DNA from: Shewanella sp. OMA3-2
GTDB taxonomy: Bacteria; Pseudomonadota; Gammaproteobacteria; Enterobacterales; Shewanellaceae
DNA length: 64,000 nucleotides
NCBI RefSeq assembly: GCF_021513195.1
Contig: NZ_CP090974.1
Span: 3,174,001 to 3,238,000, forward strand
Direction of reading: 5' to 3'
How positions within the stretch are numbered: position 1 is the first letter of the stretch; each line of letters starts with the position of its first letter. The translations under genes were made by a program, and so were the position numbers. This document shows, in pieces, positions 4,441 through 49,060 of the stretch. The notes beneath the pieces were generated by a model that saw only the letters and a list, made by a program, of their open reading frames with translations, was not told the origin of the DNA and searched no databases.

Positions 4441-4668
4441 TAGCCCGCCCTTTATCTTGTTCAGGTAATAATGCGCTGACTATATTCATATTTATCGCTA
4501 TAAGCAAATAGATAAATTAAGTTGCACGCAACATAATTGACCACACTTGAATAAATCTTTATAGTACTGATTAATCAGCAAGGTTTAGCGGTTATTCCTC
4601 CCAGTTTACCCCGTTCCCTTACCTAATTATTTTCATTATATTTTAAAAACGATTAAATGGAGCAAGAT

Positions 4669-5154
4669 ATGAGTAAGGCAATTTATCAATTTGATGTCAA
4701 AGATATTCAAGGAAATAACATCAGTATGGGGACTTTTAAAAATAAAGTGCTACTGATTGTCAATACCGCGAGTAAATGTGGTTTTACCCCTCAATATAAA
4801 GCTTTGGAACAATTATACCAGCAATACAAAGATCAAGGTTTGATTGTTATGGGGTTTCCGTGTAATCAATTTGGTAAGCAAGAGCAAGGAACTGAGACAG
4901 AAATAAGCCAATTTTGCGAACTTAATTTTGGGGTGACTTTTCCATTATTTAGTAAAATAGACGTAAATGGTGATGACACTCCTCCGCTATATCAATACTT
5001 AAAACAGTCTGCAAAAGGTTTGTTAGGAAGCCAGTCGATTAAGTGGAATTTCACCAAGTTTTTAGTCGATACACAGGGAAATGTGATCGAGCGTTATGCG
5101 CCGACAACAAAACCCGAAGATTTATTACCAGTAATAGAAAAACTTTTAAAATAA
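4669..5154 (+). CDS. Glutathione peroxidase family protein
   Basis: A 161-residue thioredoxin-fold peroxidase. The peroxidatic residue is Cys37 in TASKCGFTPQY, a cysteine rather than selenocysteine. The conserved Gln partner lies in FPCNQFG and the Trp in IKWNFTKF. The frame could start 12 nt earlier, but GGAG lies 6 nt before the ATG at 4669, which decides the start. There is no signal peptide, so it is cytoplasmic. Bacterial Cys-type members usually reduce lipid or alkyl hydroperoxides with thioredoxin (the BtuE type in E. coli). Its last codons run into a 12-bp tandem repeat. Confidence 0.9.
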   Translation: MSKAIYQFDVKDIQGNNISMGTFKNKVLLIVNTASKCGFTPQYKALEQLYQQYKDQGLIVMGFPCNQFGKQEQGTETEISQFCELNFGVTFPLFSKIDVNGDDTPPLYQYLKQSAKGLLGSQSIKWNFTKFLVDTQGNVIERYAPTTKPEDLLPVIEKLLK

Positions 5155-5179
5155 CTTTTAAAATAACTTTTAAAATAAC
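5141..5179 (+). repeat. Three tandem 12-bp repeats across the stop codon
   Basis: The unit AACTTTTAAAAT occurs three times in a row, followed by AAC. The peroxidase stop codon (5152-5154) falls at the junction of the first two units, so two further in-phase copies lie after the gene. Probably replication slippage. Confidence 0.9.
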
Positions 5180-5253
5180 ACTATAAATTTCAAGTAAATA
5201 GATAGTTTTTTATAGATCTTTTTATTTTTTAACAATAATTTATATATTATTTT

Positions 5254-5280
5254 GAACTTTTACATAGATGATGACTCAAA
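5254..5280 (+). promoter_or_regulatory. Predicted sigma-E (RpoE) promoter of the single-copy small RNA
   Basis: GAACTT (5254-5259) and TCAAA (5276-5280) are separated by 16 bp. This matches the known sigma-E consensus (GGAACTT, about 16 bp, TCAAA or TCTGA). The same element with the same spacing precedes all four copies of the tandem small RNA at 43-44 kb. Confidence 0.6.
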
Positions 5281-5286
5281 CTTAGT

Positions 5287-5387
5287 AACAGTGATATTCA
5301 CTTTGTTCATCATCTCCCTGGGACTTCTAGCGCGGTCCCCTTGATCTCTAAGTAGATCGATAGGCAATCATTTGATTGCCTTTTTTT
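5287..5387 (+). ncRNA. Predicted sigma-E-dependent small RNA, single copy (about 101 nt)
   Basis: Transcription is predicted to begin about 7 nt after the promoter's TCAAA. The RNA would fold as a small 5' hairpin (GTGATATTCAC), an open segment TTGTTCATCATCTCCC (5303-5318), a GGGAC...GTCCC hairpin, a GATC...GATC hairpin, and an intrinsic terminator GGCAATCA TT TGATTGCC (5363-5380) with seven T residues. It contains no credible reading frame. The open segment is nearly identical to that of the tandem RNAs at 43-44 kb, although the rest differs. The layout resembles MicA of enterobacteria (known sigma-E RNA with a UCAUCAUCCC region). Hfq dependence and porin repression are inferred. Confidence 0.62.
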
Positions 5388-5468: not shown

Positions 5469-5544
5469 TGGTATCCCATAGGGGATTCGAACCCCTGTTA
5501 CCGCCGTGAAAGGGCGGTGTCCTAGGCCTCTAGACGAATGGGAC
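5469..5544 (-). tRNA. tRNA-Glu (TTC), copy 1
   Basis: A 76-nt cloverleaf: acceptor GTCCCAT with ATGGGAT, anticodon loop CTTTCAC (anticodon TTC), T loop GTTCGAAT, and an encoded CCA end. Promoter-distal gene of the operon. Confidence 0.97.
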
Positions 5545-5636
5545 GCCGAGATTTACTTATACTCAGTAAATAGAGTGAATACTCACTAATGTCTGTAGGC
5601 AAAACATTAATGCTATTTGTTGTTTCCAACAAAACT

Positions 5637-5712
5637 TGGTGGAGCTACACGGGATCGAACCGTGGACCTCTTCACTGCCAGCGAAGCGCTCTCCCAGCTG
5701 AGCTATAGCCCC
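5637..5712 (-). tRNA. tRNA-Ala (GGC), copy 1
   Basis: A 76-nt cloverleaf beginning GGGGCTATAGCTCAGCTGGG, anticodon GGC in TTCGCTGGCAGTGAA, CCA encoded. Confidence 0.97.
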
Positions 5713-5747
5713 AAATTTTAGTTACTAGACACCAAAATTTGAAAATA

Positions 5748-5823
5748 TGGTATCCCATAGGGGATTCGAACCCCTGTTACCGCCGTGAAAGGGCGGTGTC
5801 CTAGGCCTCTAGACGAATGGGAC
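5748..5823 (-). tRNA. tRNA-Glu (TTC), copy 2
   Basis: Same 76-nt sequence as copy 1, with CCA encoded and anticodon TTC. Confidence 0.97.
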
Positions 5824-5913
5824 ACTGTTGATACTTTATACTCTGTATCGAGTGAATACTCATTGGTGCCTGTAGGCTAAACACCAGTGCTAGTTACCTA
5901 TAATGAAGCACAA

Positions 5914-6002
5914 AACCTTAAGGATTCGAACTCCTGTTACCGCCGACTCTTTATAAACCAAAGTGGGCGATGTCCTAAGCGCTATTGCTAGACGAATGGG
6001 AC
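5914..6002 (-). pseudogene. Degenerate tRNA-Glu-like copy 1
   Basis: Starts like tRNA-Glu (GTCCCATTCGTCTAG) and keeps the TTCGAA T loop, but has an enlarged D loop, about 14 extra bases in the anticodon loop (no TTC anticodon), and no 3' acceptor strand or CCA. About 89 nt. Confidence 0.8.
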
Positions 6003-6136
6003 ACTGTTGATACCTTATACTCTGTATCGAGTGAATACTCATCGATGTCTGTAGGCTAAACATCGGTGCTATTTTAGATTTTCAAACGTTTTTTCAAAAA
6101 CAACTGCTTCGAATTATGTTCAACCATCTTAAAAAG

Positions 6137-6212
6137 TGGTATCCCATAGGGGATTCGAACCCCTGTTACCGCCGTGAAAGGGCGGTGTCCTAGGCCTCTA
6201 GACGAATGGGAC
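6137..6212 (-). tRNA. tRNA-Glu (TTC), copy 3
   Basis: Intact 76-nt tRNA-Glu, anticodon TTC, CCA encoded; 389 bp after copy 2. Confidence 0.97.
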
Positions 6213-6302
6213 ACTGTTGATACTTTATACTCTGTATCGAGTGAATACTCATTGGTGCCTGTAGGCTAAACACCAGTGCTATTTACCTATAATGAAGCAC
6301 AA

Positions 6303-6391
6303 AACCTTAAGGATTCGAACTCCTGTTACCGCCGACTCTTTATAAACCAAAGTGGGCGATGTCCTAAGCGCTATTGCTAGACGAATGGGAC
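6303..6391 (-). pseudogene. Degenerate tRNA-Glu-like copy 2
   Basis: Matches degenerate copy 1 over its 89 nt, with the same enlarged anticodon loop and lost acceptor pairing. Confidence 0.8.
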
Positions 6392-6524
6392 ACTGTTGAT
6401 ACTTTATACTCTGTATCGAGTGAATACTCATCGATGTCTGTAGGCTAAACATCGGTGCTACTTTAGATTTTCAAACGTTTTTCAAAAAAAACTGCTTCGA
6501 ATTATGTTCGACCATCTTAAAAAG

Positions 6525-6600
6525 TGGTATCCCATAGGGGATTCGAACCCCTGTTACCGCCGTGAAAGGGCGGTGTCCTAGGCCTCTAGACGAATGGGAC
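6525..6600 (-). tRNA. tRNA-Glu (TTC), copy 4
   Basis: Intact 76-nt tRNA-Glu, anticodon TTC, CCA encoded; 388 bp after copy 3. Confidence 0.97.
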
Positions 6601-6690
6601 ACTGTTGATACTTTATACTCTGTATCGAGTGAATACTCATTGGTGCCTGTAGGCTAAACACCAGTGCTATTTACCTATAATGAAGCACAA

Positions 6691-6778
6691 AACCTTAAGG
6701 ATTCGAACTCCTGTTACCGCCGACTCTTTATAAACCAAAGTGGGCATGTCCTAAGCGCTATTTCTAGACGAATGGGAC
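6691..6778 (-). pseudogene. Degenerate tRNA-Glu-like copy 3
   Basis: Same degenerate form, one base shorter in the anticodon arm (GGGCATG instead of GGGCGATG on the plus strand). Confidence 0.8.
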
Positions 6779-6911
6779 ATATTTGATACCTTATACTCTG
6801 TATCGAGTGAATACTCATCGATGTCTGTAGGCTAAACATCGGTGCTATTTTAGATTTTCAAACGTTTTTCAAAAACAACTGCTTCGAATTATGTTCAACC
6901 ATCTTAAAAAG

Positions 6912-6987
6912 TGGTATCCCATAGGGGATTCGAACCCCTGTTACCGCCGTGAAAGGGCGGTGTCCTAGGCCTCTAGACGAATGGGAC
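6912..6987 (-). tRNA. tRNA-Glu (TTC), copy 5
   Basis: Intact 76-nt tRNA-Glu, anticodon TTC, CCA encoded; 387 bp after copy 4. Confidence 0.97.
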
Positions 6988-7077
6988 ACTGTTGATACTT
7001 TATACTCTGTATCGAGTGAATACTCATTGGTGTCTGTAGGCTAAACACCAGTGCTATTTACCTATAATGAAGCACAA

Positions 7078-7166
7078 AACCTTAAGGATTCGAACTCCTG
7101 TTACCGCCGACTCTTTATAAACCAAAGTGGGCGATGTCCTAAGCGCTATTTCTAGACGAATGGGAC
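7078..7166 (-). pseudogene. Degenerate tRNA-Glu-like copy 4
   Basis: Same degenerate form. Here two degenerate copies stand next to each other between intact Glu copies 5 and 6. Confidence 0.8.
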
Positions 7167-7256
7167 ACTGTTGATACTTTATACTCTGTATCGAGTGAAT
7201 ACTCATTGGTGTCTGTAGGCTAAACACCAGTGCTAGTTACCTATAATGAAGCACAA

Positions 7257-7343
7257 AACCTTAAGGATTCGAACTCCTGTTACCGCCGACTCTTTATACC
7301 AAAGTGGGCGATGTCCTAAGCGCTATTTCTAGACGAATGGGAC
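7257..7343 (-). pseudogene. Degenerate tRNA-Glu-like copy 5
   Basis: Same degenerate form, two bases shorter in the enlarged anticodon loop (TTTATACC instead of TTTATAAACC on the plus strand). Confidence 0.8.
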
Positions 7344-7476
7344 ACTGTTGATACCTTATACTCTGTATCGAGTGAATACTCATCGATGTCTGTAGGCTAA
7401 ACATCGGTGCTATTTTAGATTTTCAAACGTTTTTCAAAAACAACTGCTTCGAATTATGTTCAACCATCTTAAAAAG

Positions 7477-7552
7477 TGGTATCCCATAGGGGATTCGAAC
7501 CCCTGTTACCGCCGTGAAAGGGCGGTGTCCTAGGCCTCTAGACGAATGGGAC
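7477..7552 (-). tRNA. tRNA-Glu (TTC), copy 6
   Basis: Intact 76-nt tRNA-Glu, anticodon TTC, CCA encoded. Confidence 0.97.
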
Positions 7553-7642
7553 ACTGTTGATACTTTATACTCTGTATCGAGTGAATACTCATTGGTGTCT
7601 GTAGGCTAAACACCAGTGCTAGTTACCTATAATGAAGCACAA

Positions 7643-7731
7643 AACCTTAAGGATTCGAACTCCTGTTACCGCCGACTCTTTATAAACCAAAGTGGGCGAT
7701 GTCCTAAGCGCTATTTCTAGACGAATGGGAC
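7643..7731 (-). pseudogene. Degenerate tRNA-Glu-like copy 6
   Basis: Same 89-nt degenerate form; promoter-proximal member of the series. Confidence 0.8.
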
Positions 7732-7838
7732 ACTGTTGATACCTTATACTCTGTATCGAGTGAATACACATCGGTGTCTACAGGCTAAACATCAACGCTA
7801 ACAGTGACAGGCTATCTTCTGCTCTAATAATAAGTAAG

Positions 7839-7914
7839 TGGTGGAGCTACACGGGATCGAACCGTGGACCTCTTCACTGCCAGCGAAGCGCTCTCCCAGC
7901 TGAGCTATAACCCC
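7839..7914 (-). tRNA. tRNA-Ala (GGC), copy 2
   Basis: A 76-nt cloverleaf identical to copy 1 except that acceptor position 5 is T rather than C, leaving a G-U pair. First gene of the minus-strand operon. Confidence 0.96.
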
Positions 7915-9691: not shown

Positions 9692-9767
9692 GGTCGCTTA
9701 GCTCAGCTGGGAGAGCACCTCCCTTACAAGGAGGGGGTCACTGGTTCGAGCCCAGTAGCGACCACCA
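9692..9767 (+). tRNA. tRNA-Val (TAC), copy 1
   Basis: A 76-nt cloverleaf: acceptor GGTCGCT with AGCGACC, anticodon loop CTTACAA (TAC), CCA encoded. Confidence 0.97.
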
Positions 9768-9813
9768 TACTTTCATTGATGAAATTATGTTTGTGTAATT
9801 AGTTATATTCCCG

Positions 9814-9889
9814 GGTCGCTTAGCTCAGCTGGGAGAGCACCTCCCTTACAAGGAGGGGGTCACTGGTTCGAGCCCAGTAGCGACCACCA
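9814..9889 (+). tRNA. tRNA-Val (TAC), copy 2
   Basis: Same sequence as copy 1. The short AT-rich spacer ends in CCCG just before the gene, as for copies 3-5. Confidence 0.97.
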
Positions 9890-9916
9890 TATAACTAAAA
9901 TTGTGTAGAGTTCCCG

Positions 9917-9992
9917 GGTCGCTTAGCTCAGCTGGGAGAGCACCTCCCTTACAAGGAGGGGGTCACTGGTTCGAGCCCAGTAGCGACCACCA
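9917..9992 (+). tRNA. tRNA-Val (TAC), copy 3
   Basis: Same sequence as copy 1, with a 27-bp spacer before it. Confidence 0.97.
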
Positions 9993-10031
9993 TTAATTTG
10001 AACTCATAGCTGTAAATTAGATACATTCCCG

Positions 10032-10107
10032 GGTCGCTTAGCTCAGCTGGGAGAGCACCTCCCTTACAAGGAGGGGGTCACTGGTTCGAGCCCAGTAGCG
10101 ACCACCA
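10032..10107 (+). tRNA. tRNA-Val (TAC), copy 4
   Basis: Same sequence as copy 1. Confidence 0.97.
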
Positions 10108-10134
10108 AATGTATTAATATTGTAAGATATCCCG

Positions 10135-10210
10135 GGTCGCTTAGCTCAGCTGGGAGAGCACCTCCCTTACAAGGAGGGGGTCACTGGTTCGAGCCCAGTA
10201 GCGACCACCA
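10135..10210 (+). tRNA. tRNA-Val (TAC), copy 5
   Basis: Same sequence as copy 1. Confidence 0.97.
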
Positions 10211-10239
10211 TTATCTTACAGATATTTTGATTTATCCCA

Positions 10240-10315
10240 GGTCGCTTAGCTCAGCTGGGAGAGCACCTCCCTTACAAGGAGGGGGTCACTGGTTCGAGCC
10301 CAGTAGCGACCACCA
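10240..10315 (+). tRNA. tRNA-Val (TAC), copy 6
   Basis: Same sequence as copy 1; last of the operon. I found no classic hairpin-plus-T terminator directly after it. Confidence 0.97.
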
Positions 10316-18602: not shown

Positions 18603-19013
18603 ATGATGAACGCTACAGTCAGCACCCAATCTACATACTCTATCAGTGATTTATCAAAAGAATTTGATATCACCACGCGCAGCATCCGTTTTTATGAGGA
18701 TCAGGGCTTAATCAAGCCTAAACGCCGTGGCCAAACACGTATATACACCTTAAAAGATCGCGTCAGACTAAAACTGATTTTACGCGGTAAACGTTTAGGT
18801 TTTTCATTGGCAGAAACCCGCCGCTTATTTGAACTTTACGATGCAGACAAATCAAGTACATCACAGCTTAATACTATGCTGGACTTAGTTAATGACAAAA
18901 AAGCCGCCCTGCAGCAACAAATGGATGACATTAAAGTGGTGCTGATGGAACTCAACTCAGCCGAGCAGCAATGTAAATCTGCCTTAGAAACCAATAAGGC
19001 ATCAAAAACATAA
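18603..19013 (+). CDS. liuR: MerR-family regulator of branched-chain amino acid catabolism, LiuR
   Basis: A 136-residue regulator with an N-terminal MerR winged helix (ISDLSKEFDITTRSIRFYEDQGLI, residues about 12-35, then RVRLKLILRGKRLGFSLAETRRL) and a C-terminal coiled coil. It is the first gene before liuA in the same direction, the usual place of LiuR in Shewanella and relatives. The start is ATGATG: the first ATG directly abuts GGTGAG, and the second (18606) is only 3 nt further, so the start is uncertain by one codon. The segment 18600-18611, covering ribosome site and start, is perfectly complementary over 12 bases to the predicted small RNA at 5287-5387. Confidence 0.88.
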   Translation: MMNATVSTQSTYSISDLSKEFDITTRSIRFYEDQGLIKPKRRGQTRIYTLKDRVRLKLILRGKRLGFSLAETRRLFELYDADKSSTSQLNTMLDLVNDKKAALQQQMDDIKVVLMELNSAEQQCKSALETNKASKT

Positions 19014-41142: not shown

Positions 41143-42969
41143 CTAACCATGGTTAACTGATACTTGCCAACCCACTAACTTATCTAATTGCACTTGCAGC
41201 GATGGGTGATAGCCAGCCCTTGCTTTAGCATATATCTGTTCGACTTCTTGTTTATATCCAGCGACTAATAACTCGCTATAAAGTGGTTTAACAAACTTAG
41301 CTCGTCCGACTGAAGTTAAAAATACCGATAATGGTGCTAGCACTGGGTCATAATGATTGCGAATAGCGACCCTAAACCAATCACAAACAATTTCTGAATT
41401 TTTGCTTTGACTAAATAAAAACGTGTCATCTAAATCAAGTAACAGCTGTTGGCTAACAACTTGAGGTAATTGATTTAAAAAATACTGCCAATGATGCACC
41501 CGCCAACCACTCACCTTTAACTCGCTCGGCGGTTTTTTATGTTCAATGTGGACAAGCGCCAAATGCACTTTGTCTAGGCTGCGTGACGCTGGAGGCACAA
41601 ACCAATGGGGCAATCCTTCACCATATACCCACTCTGTTAATTCAACTTCAGTTAACTTATCCGGAAAGTGGGGTAATACATGTTGCAGCATATAAGCCAT
41701 AAATACTTCGGTAGTAATGGCTTTGAAAGCAAAGTGAGTCACATATTCAAATAGAAAAGCGTCGAAGGCTTCACGGCCAAAGCGGTGTTCTAGCTCATGA
41801 ACAAACATTGATGCTTTATCATAGGTGAAACGATTAAATGCCAAATTTGGATCTCGTGTTTGTACATTGGCTGGTAAGGTTTGATCTATCAAATCAGTAG
41901 ACAGCATTTCAGCTTCTAAACGTGTATATTCATTGACCCACTCTAAATCAGCTTGTTCTTTACCGTATATCGCTTCAACGATACGATTCGTAAAGTAAGT
42001 GGTAAACCCTTCATTAAGCCATAGATCACGCCATGTCGCATTACTGACCAAGTTTCCGGTCCAAGAATGTGCTAGTTCATGCGCTACCGTAGACACTAAA
42101 CTTTTATCACCTGCTATTAAGGTTGGTGTCATAAATGCCAGCATAGGGTTTTCCATGCCGCCAAATGGAAAACTGGGTGGCAATACAATCATATCGTACC
42201 TCTGCCATGCATAAGGGCCAAGTAATGACTCTGCAACCTTAATCATCGCTTCCGTATCTTCAAACTCTTTAACCGCACTGGCTAACATTGCCGGTTCGGT
42301 ATAAATGCCACTTCTAGGTCCTGTGGCTTCAAACGCTAAGTCGCCCACTGCCAAAGCCAGTAAATGAGTCGGTATAGGCTTATCCATCACAAAATGAAAA
42401 ATGCCATCTGGAGGCATCTGCGGATCATTAATCGCGCTCATGACAGCACGCAAACCATTATTGACTTTTATGGTGGCATCAAATGTCACCCGCGCTTTAG
42501 GCGTGTCCTGCAAGGGGATCCAGCTTCTAGCGTTAATCGGTTGTGACTGACTGAATAGATAGGGTTGTTGCTTACCTAAAGTTTGTTCGGGGGTTAACCA
42601 TTGTAGACCTTGTGCCTGTGGTGATGTGGCATAATGAATGGTGACAGCACTAATTGATTGATCAATTTGTATCACCAATTTTTGCCCTAATATATCGCCT
42701 ACATCAATCAATGAAAAATCTAGTGATTGCCCTTGTAAATCGGTAACACTAAACAAGGTTAGATCTCGGCAATCTAAAATAAGTTGCCCATGGTCACGGT
42801 CTGCTCCCTTAGCTAAGGCAAAGTGTAAAGTCACCTGCCCCATTAATTTTTTAGCAATAAAATCGACTTGTAAATTAAGATCTAAATGAGAAACACAAAC
42901 AATGTCAGTATTAGCACTTGAATGATAATCATGCTGATAATCCCAAGATGAAGTTACAGTGGTAGCCAC
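41143..42969 (-). CDS. M1-family aminopeptidase (leukotriene A4 hydrolase-like)
   Basis: A 608-residue zinc metallopeptidase. The exopeptidase motif is FGGMENPM (near residue 267), and the zinc site is VAHELAHSWTGN (HExxH) with the downstream Glu in WLNEGFTTYF. The C-terminal helical domain (about 460-605) matches the bacterial leukotriene A4 hydrolase/aminopeptidase B group. No signal peptide is seen. The start is GTG with AAGGAT 6 nt upstream. It releases N-terminal residues from peptides, fitting with the neighbouring peptide importer, although the genes are convergent. Confidence 0.92.
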   Translation of the reverse strand: MATTVTSSWDYQHDYHSSANTDIVCVSHLDLNLQVDFIAKKLMGQVTLHFALAKGADRDHGQLILDCRDLTLFSVTDLQGQSLDFSLIDVGDILGQKLVIQIDQSISAVTIHYATSPQAQGLQWLTPEQTLGKQQPYLFSQSQPINARSWIPLQDTPKARVTFDATIKVNNGLRAVMSAINDPQMPPDGIFHFVMDKPIPTHLLALAVGDLAFEATGPRSGIYTEPAMLASAVKEFEDTEAMIKVAESLLGPYAWQRYDMIVLPPSFPFGGMENPMLAFMTPTLIAGDKSLVSTVAHELAHSWTGNLVSNATWRDLWLNEGFTTYFTNRIVEAIYGKEQADLEWVNEYTRLEAEMLSTDLIDQTLPANVQTRDPNLAFNRFTYDKASMFVHELEHRFGREAFDAFLFEYVTHFAFKAITTEVFMAYMLQHVLPHFPDKLTEVELTEWVYGEGLPHWFVPPASRSLDKVHLALVHIEHKKPPSELKVSGWRVHHWQYFLNQLPQVVSQQLLLDLDDTFLFSQSKNSEIVCDWFRVAIRNHYDPVLAPLSVFLTSVGRAKFVKPLYSELLVAGYKQEVEQIYAKARAGYHPSLQVQLDKLVGWQVSVNHG

Positions 42970-43129
42970 TTTAGTATCCTTAATTGCTGTTTTAGTTTTG
43001 ATGGTTCAGCGCGCCTAATAATTGCCCTTAAAGATAACATTTAAAAGGCTTATTTAGTATCTGCCCACCAGAACTTCATCAGGTTTGTAGCCTTGAATAA
43101 TAGAATAATAAAAATAATTAACTTTCGTT

Positions 43130-43157
43130 GGAACTTTTATAAAAAACGCCAGTCTGA
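43130..43157 (+). promoter_or_regulatory. Predicted sigma-E promoter, small-RNA copy 1
   Basis: GGAACTT (43130-43136), a 16-bp spacer, and TCTGA (43153-43157): a full match to the sigma-E consensus. Confidence 0.72.
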
Positions 43158-43163
43158 ATATAT

Positions 43164-43310
43164 GAACCGAATTTGATATAGCTACTTTTACTGAACGTTT
43201 GAGCTTGTAAATGATTTTGTTCATCATCATCTCCCCACTCGATAGTGAGTTATCCTATCAACAGAATTGCACATTGCAGTTACAGCAACCTTAATAGGTT
43301 GCTTTTTTTT
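43164..43310 (+). ncRNA. Predicted sigma-E-dependent small RNA, tandem copy 1 (about 147 nt)
   Basis: From about 7 nt after TCTGA to the end of the T run. The 5' portion (about 43 nt) differs from copies 2-4, while the remainder is identical. It contains the C-rich core TTGTTCATCATCATCTCCCC (43217-43236), a small CACT-CGAT-AGTG hairpin, and the intrinsic terminator AGCAACC TTAATA GGTTGCT with eight T residues. No ribosome site plus reading frame is seen. The core is almost the same as in the single-copy RNA at 5287. Role in envelope stress and porin control is inferred from the promoter and the core. Confidence 0.66.
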
Positions 43311-43470
43311 AGCTGTTTTTTACGACGGTTTGAGCATTAGGCCGCCACTACGTTTATAGCAATCATTGTTTAACAGTCGTTTTCTAGAAAGCACTTTCTA
43401 ATAAGCACGTCTAACAATACTAGTGAGATAAACGCTTAGAATAATTATTTTAATTTTTTTATCTTTATTT

Positions 43471-43498
43471 GGAACTTTTATCAATAAGGCCTGTCTGA
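43471..43498 (+). promoter_or_regulatory. Predicted sigma-E promoter, small-RNA copy 2
   Basis: GGAACTT (43471-43477), 16-bp spacer, TCTGA (43494-43498). Confidence 0.72.
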
Positions 43499-43504
43499 AT
43501 ATAT

Positions 43505-43651
43505 GAACCGAATTTTGTACACCCCAATTTATTGAAAGTTTGAGTCTGTAAATGATTTTGTTCATCATCATCTCCCCACTCGATAGTGAGTTATCCTATC
43601 AACAGAATTGCACATTGCAGTTACAGCAACCTTAATAGGTTGCTTTTTTTT
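43505..43651 (+). ncRNA. Predicted sigma-E-dependent small RNA, tandem copy 2
   Basis: 147 nt, same architecture as copy 1 but with a different 5' segment (GAACCGAATTTTGTACACCC). Core and terminator are identical to copy 1. Confidence 0.66.
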
Positions 43652-43811
43652 AGCTGTTTTTTACGACGGTTTGAGCATTAGGCCGCCACTACGTTTATAG
43701 CAATCATTGTTTAACAGTCGTTTTCTAGAAAGCACTTTCTAATAAGCACGTCTAACAATACTAGTGAGATAAACGCTTAGAATAATTATTTTAATTTTTT
43801 TATCTTTATTT

Positions 43812-43839
43812 GGAACTTTTATCAATAAGGCCTGTCTGA
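43812..43839 (+). promoter_or_regulatory. Predicted sigma-E promoter, small-RNA copy 3
   Basis: GGAACTT (43812-43818), 16-bp spacer, TCTGA (43835-43839). Confidence 0.72.
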
Positions 43840-43845
43840 ATATAT

Positions 43846-43992
43846 GAACCGAATTTTGTACACCCCAATTTATTGAAAGTTTGAGTCTGTAAATGATTTT
43901 GTTCATCATCATCTCCCCACTCGATAGTGAGTTATCCTATCAACAGAATTGCACATTGCAGTTACAGCAACCTTAATAGGTTGCTTTTTTTT
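43846..43992 (+). ncRNA. Predicted sigma-E-dependent small RNA, tandem copy 3
   Basis: 147 nt, identical by eye to copy 2 including promoter and terminator. Confidence 0.66.
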
Positions 43993-44152
43993 AGCTGTTT
44001 TTTACGACGGTTTGAGCATTAGGCCGCCACTACGTTTATAGCAATCATTGTTTAACAGTCGTTTTCTAGAAAGCACTTTCTAATAAGCACGTCTAACAAT
44101 ACTAGTGAGATAAACGCTTAGAATAATTATTTTAATTTTTTTATCTTTATTT

Positions 44153-44180
44153 GGAACTTTTATCAATAAGGCCTGTCTGA
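44153..44180 (+). promoter_or_regulatory. Predicted sigma-E promoter, small-RNA copy 4
   Basis: GGAACTT (44153-44159), 16-bp spacer, TCTGA (44176-44180). Confidence 0.72.
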
Positions 44181-44186
44181 ATATAT

Positions 44187-44334
44187 GAACCGAATTTTGT
44201 ACACCCCAATTTATTGAAAGTTTGAGTCTGTAAATGATTTTGTTCATCATCATCTCCCCACTCGATAGTGAGTTATCCTATCAACAGAATTGCACATTGC
44301 AGTTACAGCAACCTTAATAGGTTGCTTTTTTTTT
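44187..44334 (+). ncRNA. Predicted sigma-E-dependent small RNA, tandem copy 4
   Basis: Identical by eye to copies 2 and 3, with one more T at the terminator; the sequence after the T run is unique. It points toward the 3' end of pstS. Confidence 0.66.
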
Positions 44335-44360
44335 GCTTAAAAATTACATAACGCCAAGCA

Positions 44361-44410: not shown

Positions 44411-45382
44411 TTAAAGACGGATACCGGCTTTTTCTAAATCTTTGGCTATTACAGTGCGAGGTAATGGTACATAACCATCTTTTTCAACAACTTGCTGACC
44501 TTGCTTAGATAATATAAAGCGAATGAATTCACGATCCATTGGCGACAAATCTTTGTTTGGGTGCTTGTTGATGTAAACGTACAAGTAACGAGAAAGTGGG
44601 TAAGTTCCATTAGCGGCATTGGCAGCTGATGCTTCGATAAACTTATCGCCTTTCTTAGATACTGCAACCGCTTTTACACCCGCTGTTTTATAACCAATAC
44701 CTGAGTAACCAATTGCGTTAAGGCCCTGTGATACTGACTGAACAACAGATGCAGAACCTGGTTGTTCGTTCACGTTTGGACGGAAATCGCCTTTACATAA
44801 GGCTTTTTCTTTGAAGTAGCCATAGGTACCAGAGACTGAGTTACGACCGTACAATTGCACATCTTTTGCAGTCCAGTTACCGTCTAGGCCTAAGTCACCC
44901 CAACGTTCAACTTGCTTCCCGCCACACTTGTTTGTTGAAGAGAAAATACTATCGATTTGCTCGATGCTTAACCCCTTAATTGGGTTATCTTTATGAACAA
45001 ACACCGCAAGTGCATCAATTGCTACGCGGATAGCAGTTGGTTGGTAACCAAAATGCTTTTCAAATGACTCAACTTCATTAGGCTTCATTTTACGGCTCAT
45101 TGGACCGAACTGTGAAGTCCCTTCAGTTAATGCTGGTGGCGCTGTAGAAGAGCCTGCAGCTTGAATTTGGATATTAACGTTAGGATATATATGCTTAAAT
45201 TCTTCAGCCCATAGCGTCATCATATTAGCTAACGTATCAGAACCTACAGAAGACAAGTTACCAGAAACACCACTTGTTTTTTCGTACATAGGTAAGGTTT
45301 CATCAATTGCAGCCATAGATGCTGCCGAGAACACACCAGCGGCTGTTAAGGTAATTGCGCCGACAAGTTTTTTCAGTTTCAT
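44411..45382 (-). CDS. pstS: Phosphate ABC transporter substrate-binding protein PstS
   Basis: A 323-residue periplasmic binding protein with a signal peptide ([24 protein letters not shown]). It shows the PstS-type pattern: [19 protein letters not shown] at the start of the mature protein, phosphate-binding [22 protein letters not shown] (near residue 75), and [15 protein letters not shown] (near 178). GGAG lies 7 nt before the ATG and a consensus Pho box about 83 bp upstream. No pstCAB genes follow, so the permease must lie elsewhere. It sits downstream of phoB-phoR on the same strand. Confidence 0.93.
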
Positions 45383-48130: not shown

Positions 48131-49060
48131 TTAAAACTTATGCTCTAAACCTAGACCCAAATATGAATCATCAACATCGCCAGAGTCATACATTGCATTA
48201 GTCGTGTAATAAGCAAACAACTTAGTTGGCTTAGCCAATGTGTAATCTGCACCCACTGACATTGAATCGCCTTTATTATCCATGTCTTGGTATTGCGCTT
48301 TTAATGTCACTGCATCTATGTCATATGCTGCGCTCAATAAGTAACCATTGTCTGTTACGTCAGAGTTAAGCTTTTCTTGCTGCTGATACATACCACCTAG
48401 TACGAAACCAGCAATTTTACCTTGCACAGTTGCACGTGCAGTATCATAACCTTTAACTTCAGAGTCATAAGCAATTGCAGCATAAAATGGCGTTGTCTTT
48501 AAGCCTGAGTCACCATAAGTCGCGGCCATACTCACGCCTGTGTTTTCGCTTTGCTCTGAATCACCGTCAGCAACATATGTTAAACCGAACTGAAAATCAC
48601 TAAACATAGGTGTCATATACGTTGCGGTCTGTGCCATACGGTTTTCACCTTTGAACACATTTTTTACATCGCCAACTAAGTCATTAAATTGATCAACTTT
48701 ACCTTGCGATATCTTTAAAACCGTATCGTTACGACCCACAGACACAAGACCGAAATTGCCCTGCAAACCCACAAACTGGTTACGCGCTTTAAAGTTCTCT
48801 TTTACATCATCACCCGTGTCAACTTCATATTCGATAGTATAAAAAGCTTCAAGATCATTACCTAATTCAAAATTACCTTTCACGCCAAAACGTGAAGCAT
48901 TACTTTGAATCGTTGTTTCAGTTTCACCGGCTACATCGTTAGATTGCGCTGATACATTTAACTTACCATAAACTTGTAATGGGTCAGCGGCGTAGGCTGT
49001 TGATATTGTTGCAGCTGTTACAGCGCAAGCCAGTAGAGTTTTAGCAAATAAGTTCATCAT
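48131..49060 (-). CDS. Gram-negative porin, probably phosphate-regulated
   Basis: A 309-residue outer-membrane beta-barrel porin. The signal peptide is NLFAKTLLACAVTAATISTAYA, and the mature part starts ADPLQVYGKLNVSAQS. The alternating strands (FGVKGNFELGNDLEAFYTIEYE, NQFVGLQGNFGLVSVGRNDT) and the C-terminal Phe (GLEHKF) are typical of 16-strand porins. It is the gene before phoB on the same strand, and a Pho box lies about 180 bp upstream, so it may be a PhoE-like porin induced by phosphate limitation. The start is ATGATGAAC; AAAGGA fits the second ATG (49057) slightly better. That sequence is complementary to the predicted small RNAs. Confidence 0.9.
   Translation of the reverse strand: MMNLFAKTLLACAVTAATISTAYAADPLQVYGKLNVSAQSNDVAGETETTIQSNASRFGVKGNFELGNDLEAFYTIEYEVDTGDDVKENFKARNQFVGLQGNFGLVSVGRNDTVLKISQGKVDQFNDLVGDVKNVFKGENRMAQTATYMTPMFSDFQFGLTYVADGDSEQSENTGVSMAATYGDSGLKTTPFYAAIAYDSEVKGYDTARATVQGKIAGFVLGGMYQQQEKLNSDVTDNGYLLSAAYDIDAVTLKAQYQDMDNKGDSMSVGADYTLAKPTKLFAYYTTNAMYDSGDVDDSYLGLGLEHKF

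Follow-up and report, generated by a model that had tools for sequence, protein, structure and literature searches.

A tandem array of four putative sigma-E-dependent small RNA genes in Shewanella sp. OMA3-2 represents a conserved, apparently undescribed RNA family

In Shewanella sp. OMA3-2, the region between a gene encoding an M1 family aminopeptidase and pstS contains a near-perfect tandem repeat, which raises the question of what the repeated unit encodes and why it is present in several copies. The repeat was analyzed within a 64-kb stretch of DNA (the window) taken from the complete 4.09-Mb genome. We consider it quite probable that this locus encodes, in four tandem copies, a single sigma-E-dependent small RNA (sRNA) of approximately 147 to 150 nt that acts in trans, belongs to a Shewanella-wide family and blocks the translation starts of envelope genes. 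The observations behind this reading are the anatomy of the units, their promoter match, conservation, covariation and multiplicity.

Tandem Repeats Finder reported a 341-bp period at positions 43128 to 44337 (3.5 copies, 98% matches), and the array proper (43130 to 44334) comprises four promoter-RNA-terminator units on the plus strand (Table 1). Every unit carried GGAACTT-N16-TCTGA, the TTCATCATCATCTCCCC core and a hairpin followed by eight or nine T residues, in the order promoter, TATATGAACCGAATTT, core TTGTTCATCATCATCTCCCC (recurring every 341 bp), two small hairpins and terminator (GCAACCTTAATAGGTTGC plus T8 or T9). Units 2 and 3 were identical across all 341 bp. Unit 1 shared 95.3% identity with them, and its 16 differences in 341 positions all fell within 43141 to 43205, that is, in the promoter spacer and the 5' part of the RNA. 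Unit 4 is incomplete (184 nt; 99.5% identity to units 2 and 3) and closes with its own terminator. The promoter pattern GAACTT-N15..17-TCTGA occurred four times in the window, always inside the array, compared to a mean of 0.08 in 100 shuffled sequences, none of which reached four. The first-pass annotation had described a 341-bp repeat with four promoter-core-terminator units, a description borne out by the repeat finder, the pattern counts and the unit alignment. The predicted 147-nt RNA of unit 2 folded at -32.1 kcal/mol (z = -3.57) and was more stable than 200 of 200 shuffled sequences. The window holds two more tandem arrays of RNA genes, one of six tRNA-Glu and two tRNA-Ala genes (5469 to 7914, partly a 387-bp repeat) and one of six tRNA-Val genes (9692 to 10315). 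Small RNA genes in this region seem to undergo tandem duplication readily.

Table 1. Features of the array, its neighbours and the type-B unit (positions in the window; R1, covariance model described in the text)
Feature	Position	Strand	Details
Unit 1 promoter	43130..43157	+	-35 GGAACTT 43130-43136; -10 TCTGA 43153-43157
Unit 1 putative sRNA	43162..43310	+	Predicted start ~43162-43165; core 43217-43236; terminator hairpin + T8 43285-43310; R1 match 43130-43311, 156.6 bits
Unit 2 promoter	43471..43498	+	Pattern match
Unit 2 putative sRNA	43503..43651	+	Core 43558-43577; terminator 43626-43651; R1 match, fold
Unit 3 promoter	43812..43839	+	Pattern match
Unit 3 putative sRNA	43844..43992	+	Core 43899-43918; terminator 43967-43992; R1 match
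Unit 4 promoter	44153..44180	+	Pattern match
Unit 4 putative sRNA	44185..44334	+	Core 44240-44259; terminator with T9 44308-44334; R1 match
Upstream neighbour, peptidase M1 family aminopeptidase	41143..42969	-	Divergent from array
Downstream neighbour, phosphate-binding protein PstS	44411..45382	-	Convergent with array; Pfam PBP_like_2, name by inspection
Type-B promoter TGAACTT...CTCAAA	5253..5280	+	1 match in window; shuffles mean 0.01
Type-B putative sRNA	5285..5387	+	Predicted start; core TTCATCATCTCC 5306-5317; GGGAC..CTAGCGC..GTCCC hairpin; terminator + T7

Small RNAs controlled by sigma-E are a textbook element of envelope protection in Gram-negative bacteria, and sigma-E promoters have a consensus of the GGAACTT...TCTGA kind. 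When one unit was compared with the whole genome, the array copies and a single additional place (77% over 55 nt; E = 7e-4) were recovered. This fifth match spans only the promoter and the 5' end of the unit, contains GAACTT-N16-TCTAC and is located 48 to 102 nt upstream of a gene encoding a 192-aa ECF sigma factor (Pfam Sigma70_r2 and r4_2), which is almost surely rpoE. It was ruled out as another sRNA, being the promoter region of that sigma factor gene. In S. oneidensis, the rpoE start site has been mapped, and the promoter elements reported for it are those of the GAACTT-N16-TCTAC place (PMC4336711). Since the fifth match corresponds to the rpoE promoter region with its published elements, the array promoters resemble the cell's own autoregulated sigma-E promoter. 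Among the family units described below, the -35 box was present in 105 aligned rows, and the -10 TC stood at one distance in 86 of these 105, equivalent to GAACTT-N16-TC. The initial proposal of sigma-E-like promoters therefore holds at the sequence level, with regard to both the consensus and the resemblance to the rpoE promoter region of this genome, and we infer that the array would be transcribed under sigma-E control. Two papers on sigma-E in S. oneidensis make no mention of small RNAs (term counts of 0 for 'sRNA' and 'small RNA' in PMC8552667 and for 'small RNA' in PMC4336711), and the literature accounts of sigma-E sRNAs, in the portions accessible, concern bacteria outside Shewanella.

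When one unit was used as the query of a DNA search, 63 of 117 Shewanella genomes matched. The covariance model R1, built from 19 units and applied with 24 candidates scored per genome under strict filters, matched 115 of the 117 at E <= 0.1, while two had no match. Conservation in related genomes had been set beforehand as a test of the proposed RNA, and this result speaks in its favour. The 115 genomes had 1 to 6 matches each; at least two were found in 102 of the 117 genomes, at least three in 70 and six in 5, counted genome-wide and not all in tandem. Six copies at exact 386-bp steps were present in one genome (G090). Among the 80 pstS loci kept of 183, R1 (E <= 0.1) found at least one place in 50 of the 61 from Shewanella or Parashewanella and in 0 of the 19 from other genera; the other 11 of the 61 had no match within the locus DNA scanned. 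PstS adjoined a unit in 28 of the 29 loci read in detail, and both the aminopeptidase and PstS were present in 22. Many species had extra copies beyond the aminopeptidase gene, on its far side, and species of the MR-1 group such as ANA-3 had a single unit of the array kind (type A) adjoining pstS.

In an order-wide sample of 295 genomes, 27 matched R1 at E <= 0.01, including six outside Shewanella, with about three chance matches expected. Four of the non-Shewanella matches, all from one family, had GAACTT, GTGAACGGATTT or GTGAACGGAATTT, and GTTCATC in common when compared by eye, and in another genome of that same family TTCATCATC and a promoter of the GAAC kind were present at two places. 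The weakly scoring places L253 to L259 (genomes G195, G210, G178, G159, G193 and G145), which combine a GAAC promoter with a GTTCATC or ATCATC core, may be single-copy relatives outside the genus. MicA, RybB and VrrA are Rfam families. At the gathering score, Rfam yielded 14 matches in the whole window, all of them tRNA, and neither the array nor the type-B unit described below matched a family; at E up to 10, 11 weak matches appeared, and MicA, RybB, VrrA and MicV were not among them. A known Rfam family was ruled out for the array, for which the best weak match was an Aggregatibacter sRNA (25.8 bits versus a cut-off of 51.4). The open-access literature contained no description of this RNA and no tandem sigma-E sRNA, with subscription papers mostly outside the search, and the terms 'sigma', 'rpoE' and 'tandem' are absent from a paper on S. 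piezotolerans sRNAs (PMC5471319). Overall, the array represents a real, conserved RNA family that is apparently undescribed.

Conservation extended to the predicted RNA structure. In a first alignment, RNAalifold paired the 5' AUGAAC with the GUUCAU of the core and left CAUCAUC-CUCC single-stranded. In the 19-unit alignment, covariation was weak, with 3 pairs and an equally high value in 5 of 500 shuffles. In the alignment of 107 units, of which 102 were distinct, two-sided changes affected 18 of 22 base pairs and 149 cells, compared to a mean of 33.1 such cells after shuffling, with none of 500 shuffles reaching 149; 95.7% of cells pair. These counts lean towards the structure because this alignment was fitted to the R1 model. 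When partners were slid by 1 to 3 columns, only 7 to 32 cells with two-sided changes were left. One position of helix 1 failed in 13 of 99 rows. The motif GTTCATCATC was at least 90% conserved at each position in the 107 units. In helix 1, the GUUCAU of the core is base-paired in 96.1% of cells. This internal pairing counts against the target-pairing reading and may be sufficient to explain the conservation of GUUCAU. These data support the view that the array unit is a conserved structured RNA.

The pattern search for core complements also matched the window at 5306 and thereby disclosed a divergent unit, type B (5253 to 5387), which had been missed at first reading. Its predicted RNA folded with z = -3.57 (0 of 200 shuffles as good), and R1 scored it weakly (33.0 bits; E = 0.0028). 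Type B is flanked by a glutathione peroxidase gene (gpx; 4657 to 5154) and the tRNA-Glu/Ala genes at 5469 to 7914; a 12-bp repeat, AACTTTTAAAAT (3.2 copies, 5141 to 5179), is present where gpx ends, a short distance upstream of type B. Six type-B units aligned well, and the type-B pattern matched in 23 of the 80 named pstS loci. In three other species, the glutathione peroxidase gene, type B and type A are adjacent, from which it follows that the two types have moved approximately 38 kb apart in this genome. At L022 (363 to 1600) and L048 (S. inventionis), other divergent units combine TTCATCATC cores with long 5' parts. The RNA family may hold more than two kinds.

Regarding possible targets, the core resembles a general antisense sequence against translation starts (its complement is GGGGAGAUGAUGAUGAAC), and starts of the AUGAUGAAC ("MMN") kind are complementary to the conserved GUUCAUCAU. 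Apart from the array and type B, most matches to longer core complements were not gene starts; nrfA, as well as type B, emerged from this search. The predicted duplex between the nrfA start GGAGTGAAGATGATGATGAAC and the core reached -29.2 kcal/mol, compared to -19.7 kcal/mol for the best of 49 window starts and -23.3 kcal/mol for the best of 1000 shuffled cores, on an energy scale that ignores accessibility and RNA structure and for a gene chosen because it matched exact or near core complements in this genome. The best-pairing window start (-19.7 kcal/mol) is that of a MerR-family regulator gene at 18603 (plus strand), which starts with ATGATGAAC. The nrfA start was readable in 12 of 15 genomes, where the best own core ranked it ahead of 47 or 48 of 48 starts; the background in this ranking was the window-genome starts, several cores were available per genome, and the species are related. 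In genome G004, the six type-A cores placed nrfA behind 5 of the 48 window starts. The ranking across species is therefore support, not proof.

The first-pass annotation had proposed that the RNA represses outer-membrane protein synthesis, for which the pairing predictions give weak support. A set of 21 outer-membrane starts (19 TonB-receptor and 2 porin) outpaired the 48 other window starts (p = 0.017), but 14% of 300 shuffled cores did equally well, and the best candidate, nrfA, encodes a periplasmic cytochrome. For the type-B core, the same comparison gave p = 0.0013, without a shuffled-core control. Genome-wide, ATGATGAAC, the complement of the conserved GTTCATCAT, occurred at 87 sites versus 21 for the reversed pattern. 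All 82 sites outside sRNA genes were examined, and 13 resembled gene starts: those of nrfA, a PAP2 protein, the MerR regulator, an MtrC-type lipoprotein with ten CXXCH motifs, Porin_4 (at 49060), CcoN, a Gcw_chp protein, chorismate mutase, a PfkB kinase, CcmB, a rhodanese, one protein without a Pfam match, and L283, which is located inside another gene and is probably false. Haem or cytochrome genes account for four of the 13 (NrfA, MtrC-type, CcoN and CcmB) and outer-membrane genes for two (Porin_4 and Gcw_chp). The Porin_4 gene (48180 to 49060, minus strand) lies just past phoB-phoR-pstS and ranked second of the 49 window starts for core pairing. In another genome (G085), two genes with signal-peptide-like ends (L166 and L176) begin near AATGATGAAAAA and AATGATGATGAAAAC, which are complementary to the core. 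Core-complement searches in two other species gave 46 matches versus 6 for controls and 37 versus 12; this enrichment was not used as evidence because Shine-Dalgarno-plus-AUG sequences and GAT-rich codons are common and partly explain it. In S. oneidensis, RyhB is reported to regulate nrfA, mtrC and the porin gene omp35 (PMC5826389), targets that overlap the candidates of the array, although RyhB is controlled by Fur and iron and is a different RNA. From the pairing predictions, nrfA would be the best-fitting target, with an mtrC-type cytochrome and a porin as weaker candidates.

A rival possibility is that the units encode a small protein, starting either at the AUG of the predicted 5' end or at an antisense AUG that lies opposite the core after GGGGAG. 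Each window copy does contain an antisense frame of 57 to 58 aa that begins MMMNK. Across the family, however, the median length of the sense frame from a 5' ATG or GTG, which 83 of 107 units have, is 13 codons. Opposite the core, the antisense frame was readable in 103 of 107 units, with a median length of 15 aa, and the reading frame of the core relative to the 5' AUG is not constant (51, 17 and 15 units in the three frames). With frames this short and differing between units, coding on either strand was ruled out and is hardly credible, and the initial remark that the repeat holds no reading frame of note stands. Very improbable, too, is a role in cis with an inert RNA, in which the repeats would act, for example, as stacked sigma-E promoters or as terminators for the aminopeptidase gene, pstS or phoB-phoR. 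The conserved position at pstS (28 of 29 loci, both neighbours in 22) would fit such a role, but the promoters face away from the aminopeptidase gene and converge on pstS, each unit is closed by its own strong terminator, and relatives also occur elsewhere (type B at gpx; places outside the genus). Furthermore, covariation of internal stems and a conserved unpaired core would be unexpected of promoter decoys.

A less remote, though still unlikely, alternative concerns the copies rather than the RNA: tandem copies could be neutral repeats maintained by recombination, with a single copy being sufficient. Units 2 to 4 differ by at most 0.6%, matches vary from 1 to 6 per genome among the 115 genomes with a match, and the MR-1-group species such as ANA-3 have a single type-A unit at pstS. 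Against this stand the 102 of 117 genomes with at least two matches and the relationships between copies: in multi-copy loci, the nearest relative lay within the same locus for only 38 of 86 units, while the remainder paired with a unit of another species, and many copies are therefore old and have been kept apart. The unit comparisons suggest that the multiplication is partly old, with separate copies, and partly recent (the window array and G090); recombination may homogenise copies. Accordingly, the earlier claim that dose was raised by tandem duplication fits the near-identical copies 2 to 4 but needs correction in that multiplicity is genus-wide and not an event of this genome alone. It is also conceivable, but again on the unlikely side, that these sRNAs mainly brake c-type cytochromes and electron transfer, pairing with AUGAUGAAC starts of nrfA, an mtrC-type decaheme gene, ccoN and ccmB, and with porin mRNAs, such that stress cuts the heavy cytochrome traffic through the envelope. 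The excess of ATGATGAAC sites over the reversed pattern and the haem, cytochrome and outer-membrane genes among the 13 start-like sites point this way, as do MtrC-family proteins, which begin MMN in 72 and MN in 28 of the 120 listed of 166 found, and the RyhB regulon offers a precedent in S. oneidensis. However, the theme was seen after the fact and without a control gene set, and the remaining seven start-like genes include metabolic and regulatory ones. The energies for ccoN, ccmB and the porin were unremarkable, and that for mtrC (-19.3 kcal/mol) was matched by 1 of the 49 window starts. Asn3 was conserved in 106 of 117 aligned MtrC N-termini, partly by construction, as M(M)N served as the anchor of the alignment, from which three sequences lacking an M(M)N, MM or MK end were excluded; positions 4 to 7 vary (1.8 to 2.2 bits), but positions 8 and 10 to 13 are similarly conserved. 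Moreover, the other species are represented by MtrC protein ends and not by mtrC DNA starts. More tentative still is the broader proposal that an expandable tandem sigma-E sRNA locus couples envelope stress to respiration, with the core acting on AUGAUGAAC starts to shut off NrfA, MtrC-type conduits, porins and cytochrome assembly, copy number setting the strength, and diverging copies gaining their own targets.

The trans-acting sRNA array thus remains the preferred reading, and it predicts transcription, sigma-E control, Hfq binding, pairing, targets and a dose effect. Envelope stress would free sigma-E, and all four promoters would fire together. Each RNA would consist of a 5' hairpin (AUGAAC/GUUCAU), the single-stranded CU-rich CAUCAUCUCCCC, two small hairpins and a strong intrinsic terminator with at least eight U residues. 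A strong terminator with a long U run is typical of Hfq-bound sRNAs, and the predicted U8 to U9 tail is compatible with Hfq binding. As the core is complementary to Shine-Dalgarno and AUG codons, the RNA most likely pairs with the starts of envelope mRNAs, where pairing would block ribosome entry. Multiple copies would give a large and fast pulse, and single copies would be free to diverge. The promoter type, the U-run terminator and the lack of a conserved open reading frame, as in sigma-E-dependent sRNAs, are all present as far as sequence can tell.

Like MicA and RybB of enterobacteria and VrrA and MicV of Vibrio, the array combines a sigma-E-type promoter, a free-standing gene and an intrinsic terminator with pairing at envelope-gene starts, which in the array is predicted. 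To our knowledge, MicA, RybB, VrrA and MicV have been described as single genes, whereas the Shewanella locus has tandem copies and a different core. VrrA and MicV have a common seed and common targets, according to a review (PMC7602753), just as the core is common to the paralogues here. A parallel in copy number is found in Listeria monocytogenes, where the near-identical 111- to 114-nt sRNAs LhrC1-5 are induced by envelope stress and block the Shine-Dalgarno sequence of an envelope-protein mRNA with CU-rich motifs (PMC4132741). LhrC and the array are alike in their multiple near-identical copies and a CU-rich motif complementary to the Shine-Dalgarno sequence, without homology or descent being implied. 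However, LhrC is under LisRK two-component control in a Gram-positive bacterium and has three redundant CUCCC motifs, whereas the array has sigma-E-type promoters, belongs to a Gram-negative bacterium and has one core per unit. Sibling sRNAs also occur as the tandem pairs OmrA/OmrB, PrrF1/PrrF2 and AbcR1/AbcR2, and csRNAs occur in 2 to 6 copies (PMC4211561, accessible portion). These resemble the array in having adjacent copies with partly common sequence but differ in size, sequence and control, and none is described as sigma-E controlled in that portion of the review.

The class of sigma-E sRNAs is already known; what appears new here is its tandem, copy-variable form. A genus-wide, copy-variable sRNA locus would represent the missing post-transcriptional arm of the sigma-E response in electroactive Shewanella and would provide a natural experiment on why sRNA genes multiply. 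If the cytochrome targets are true, envelope stress would be linked to extracellular electron transfer.
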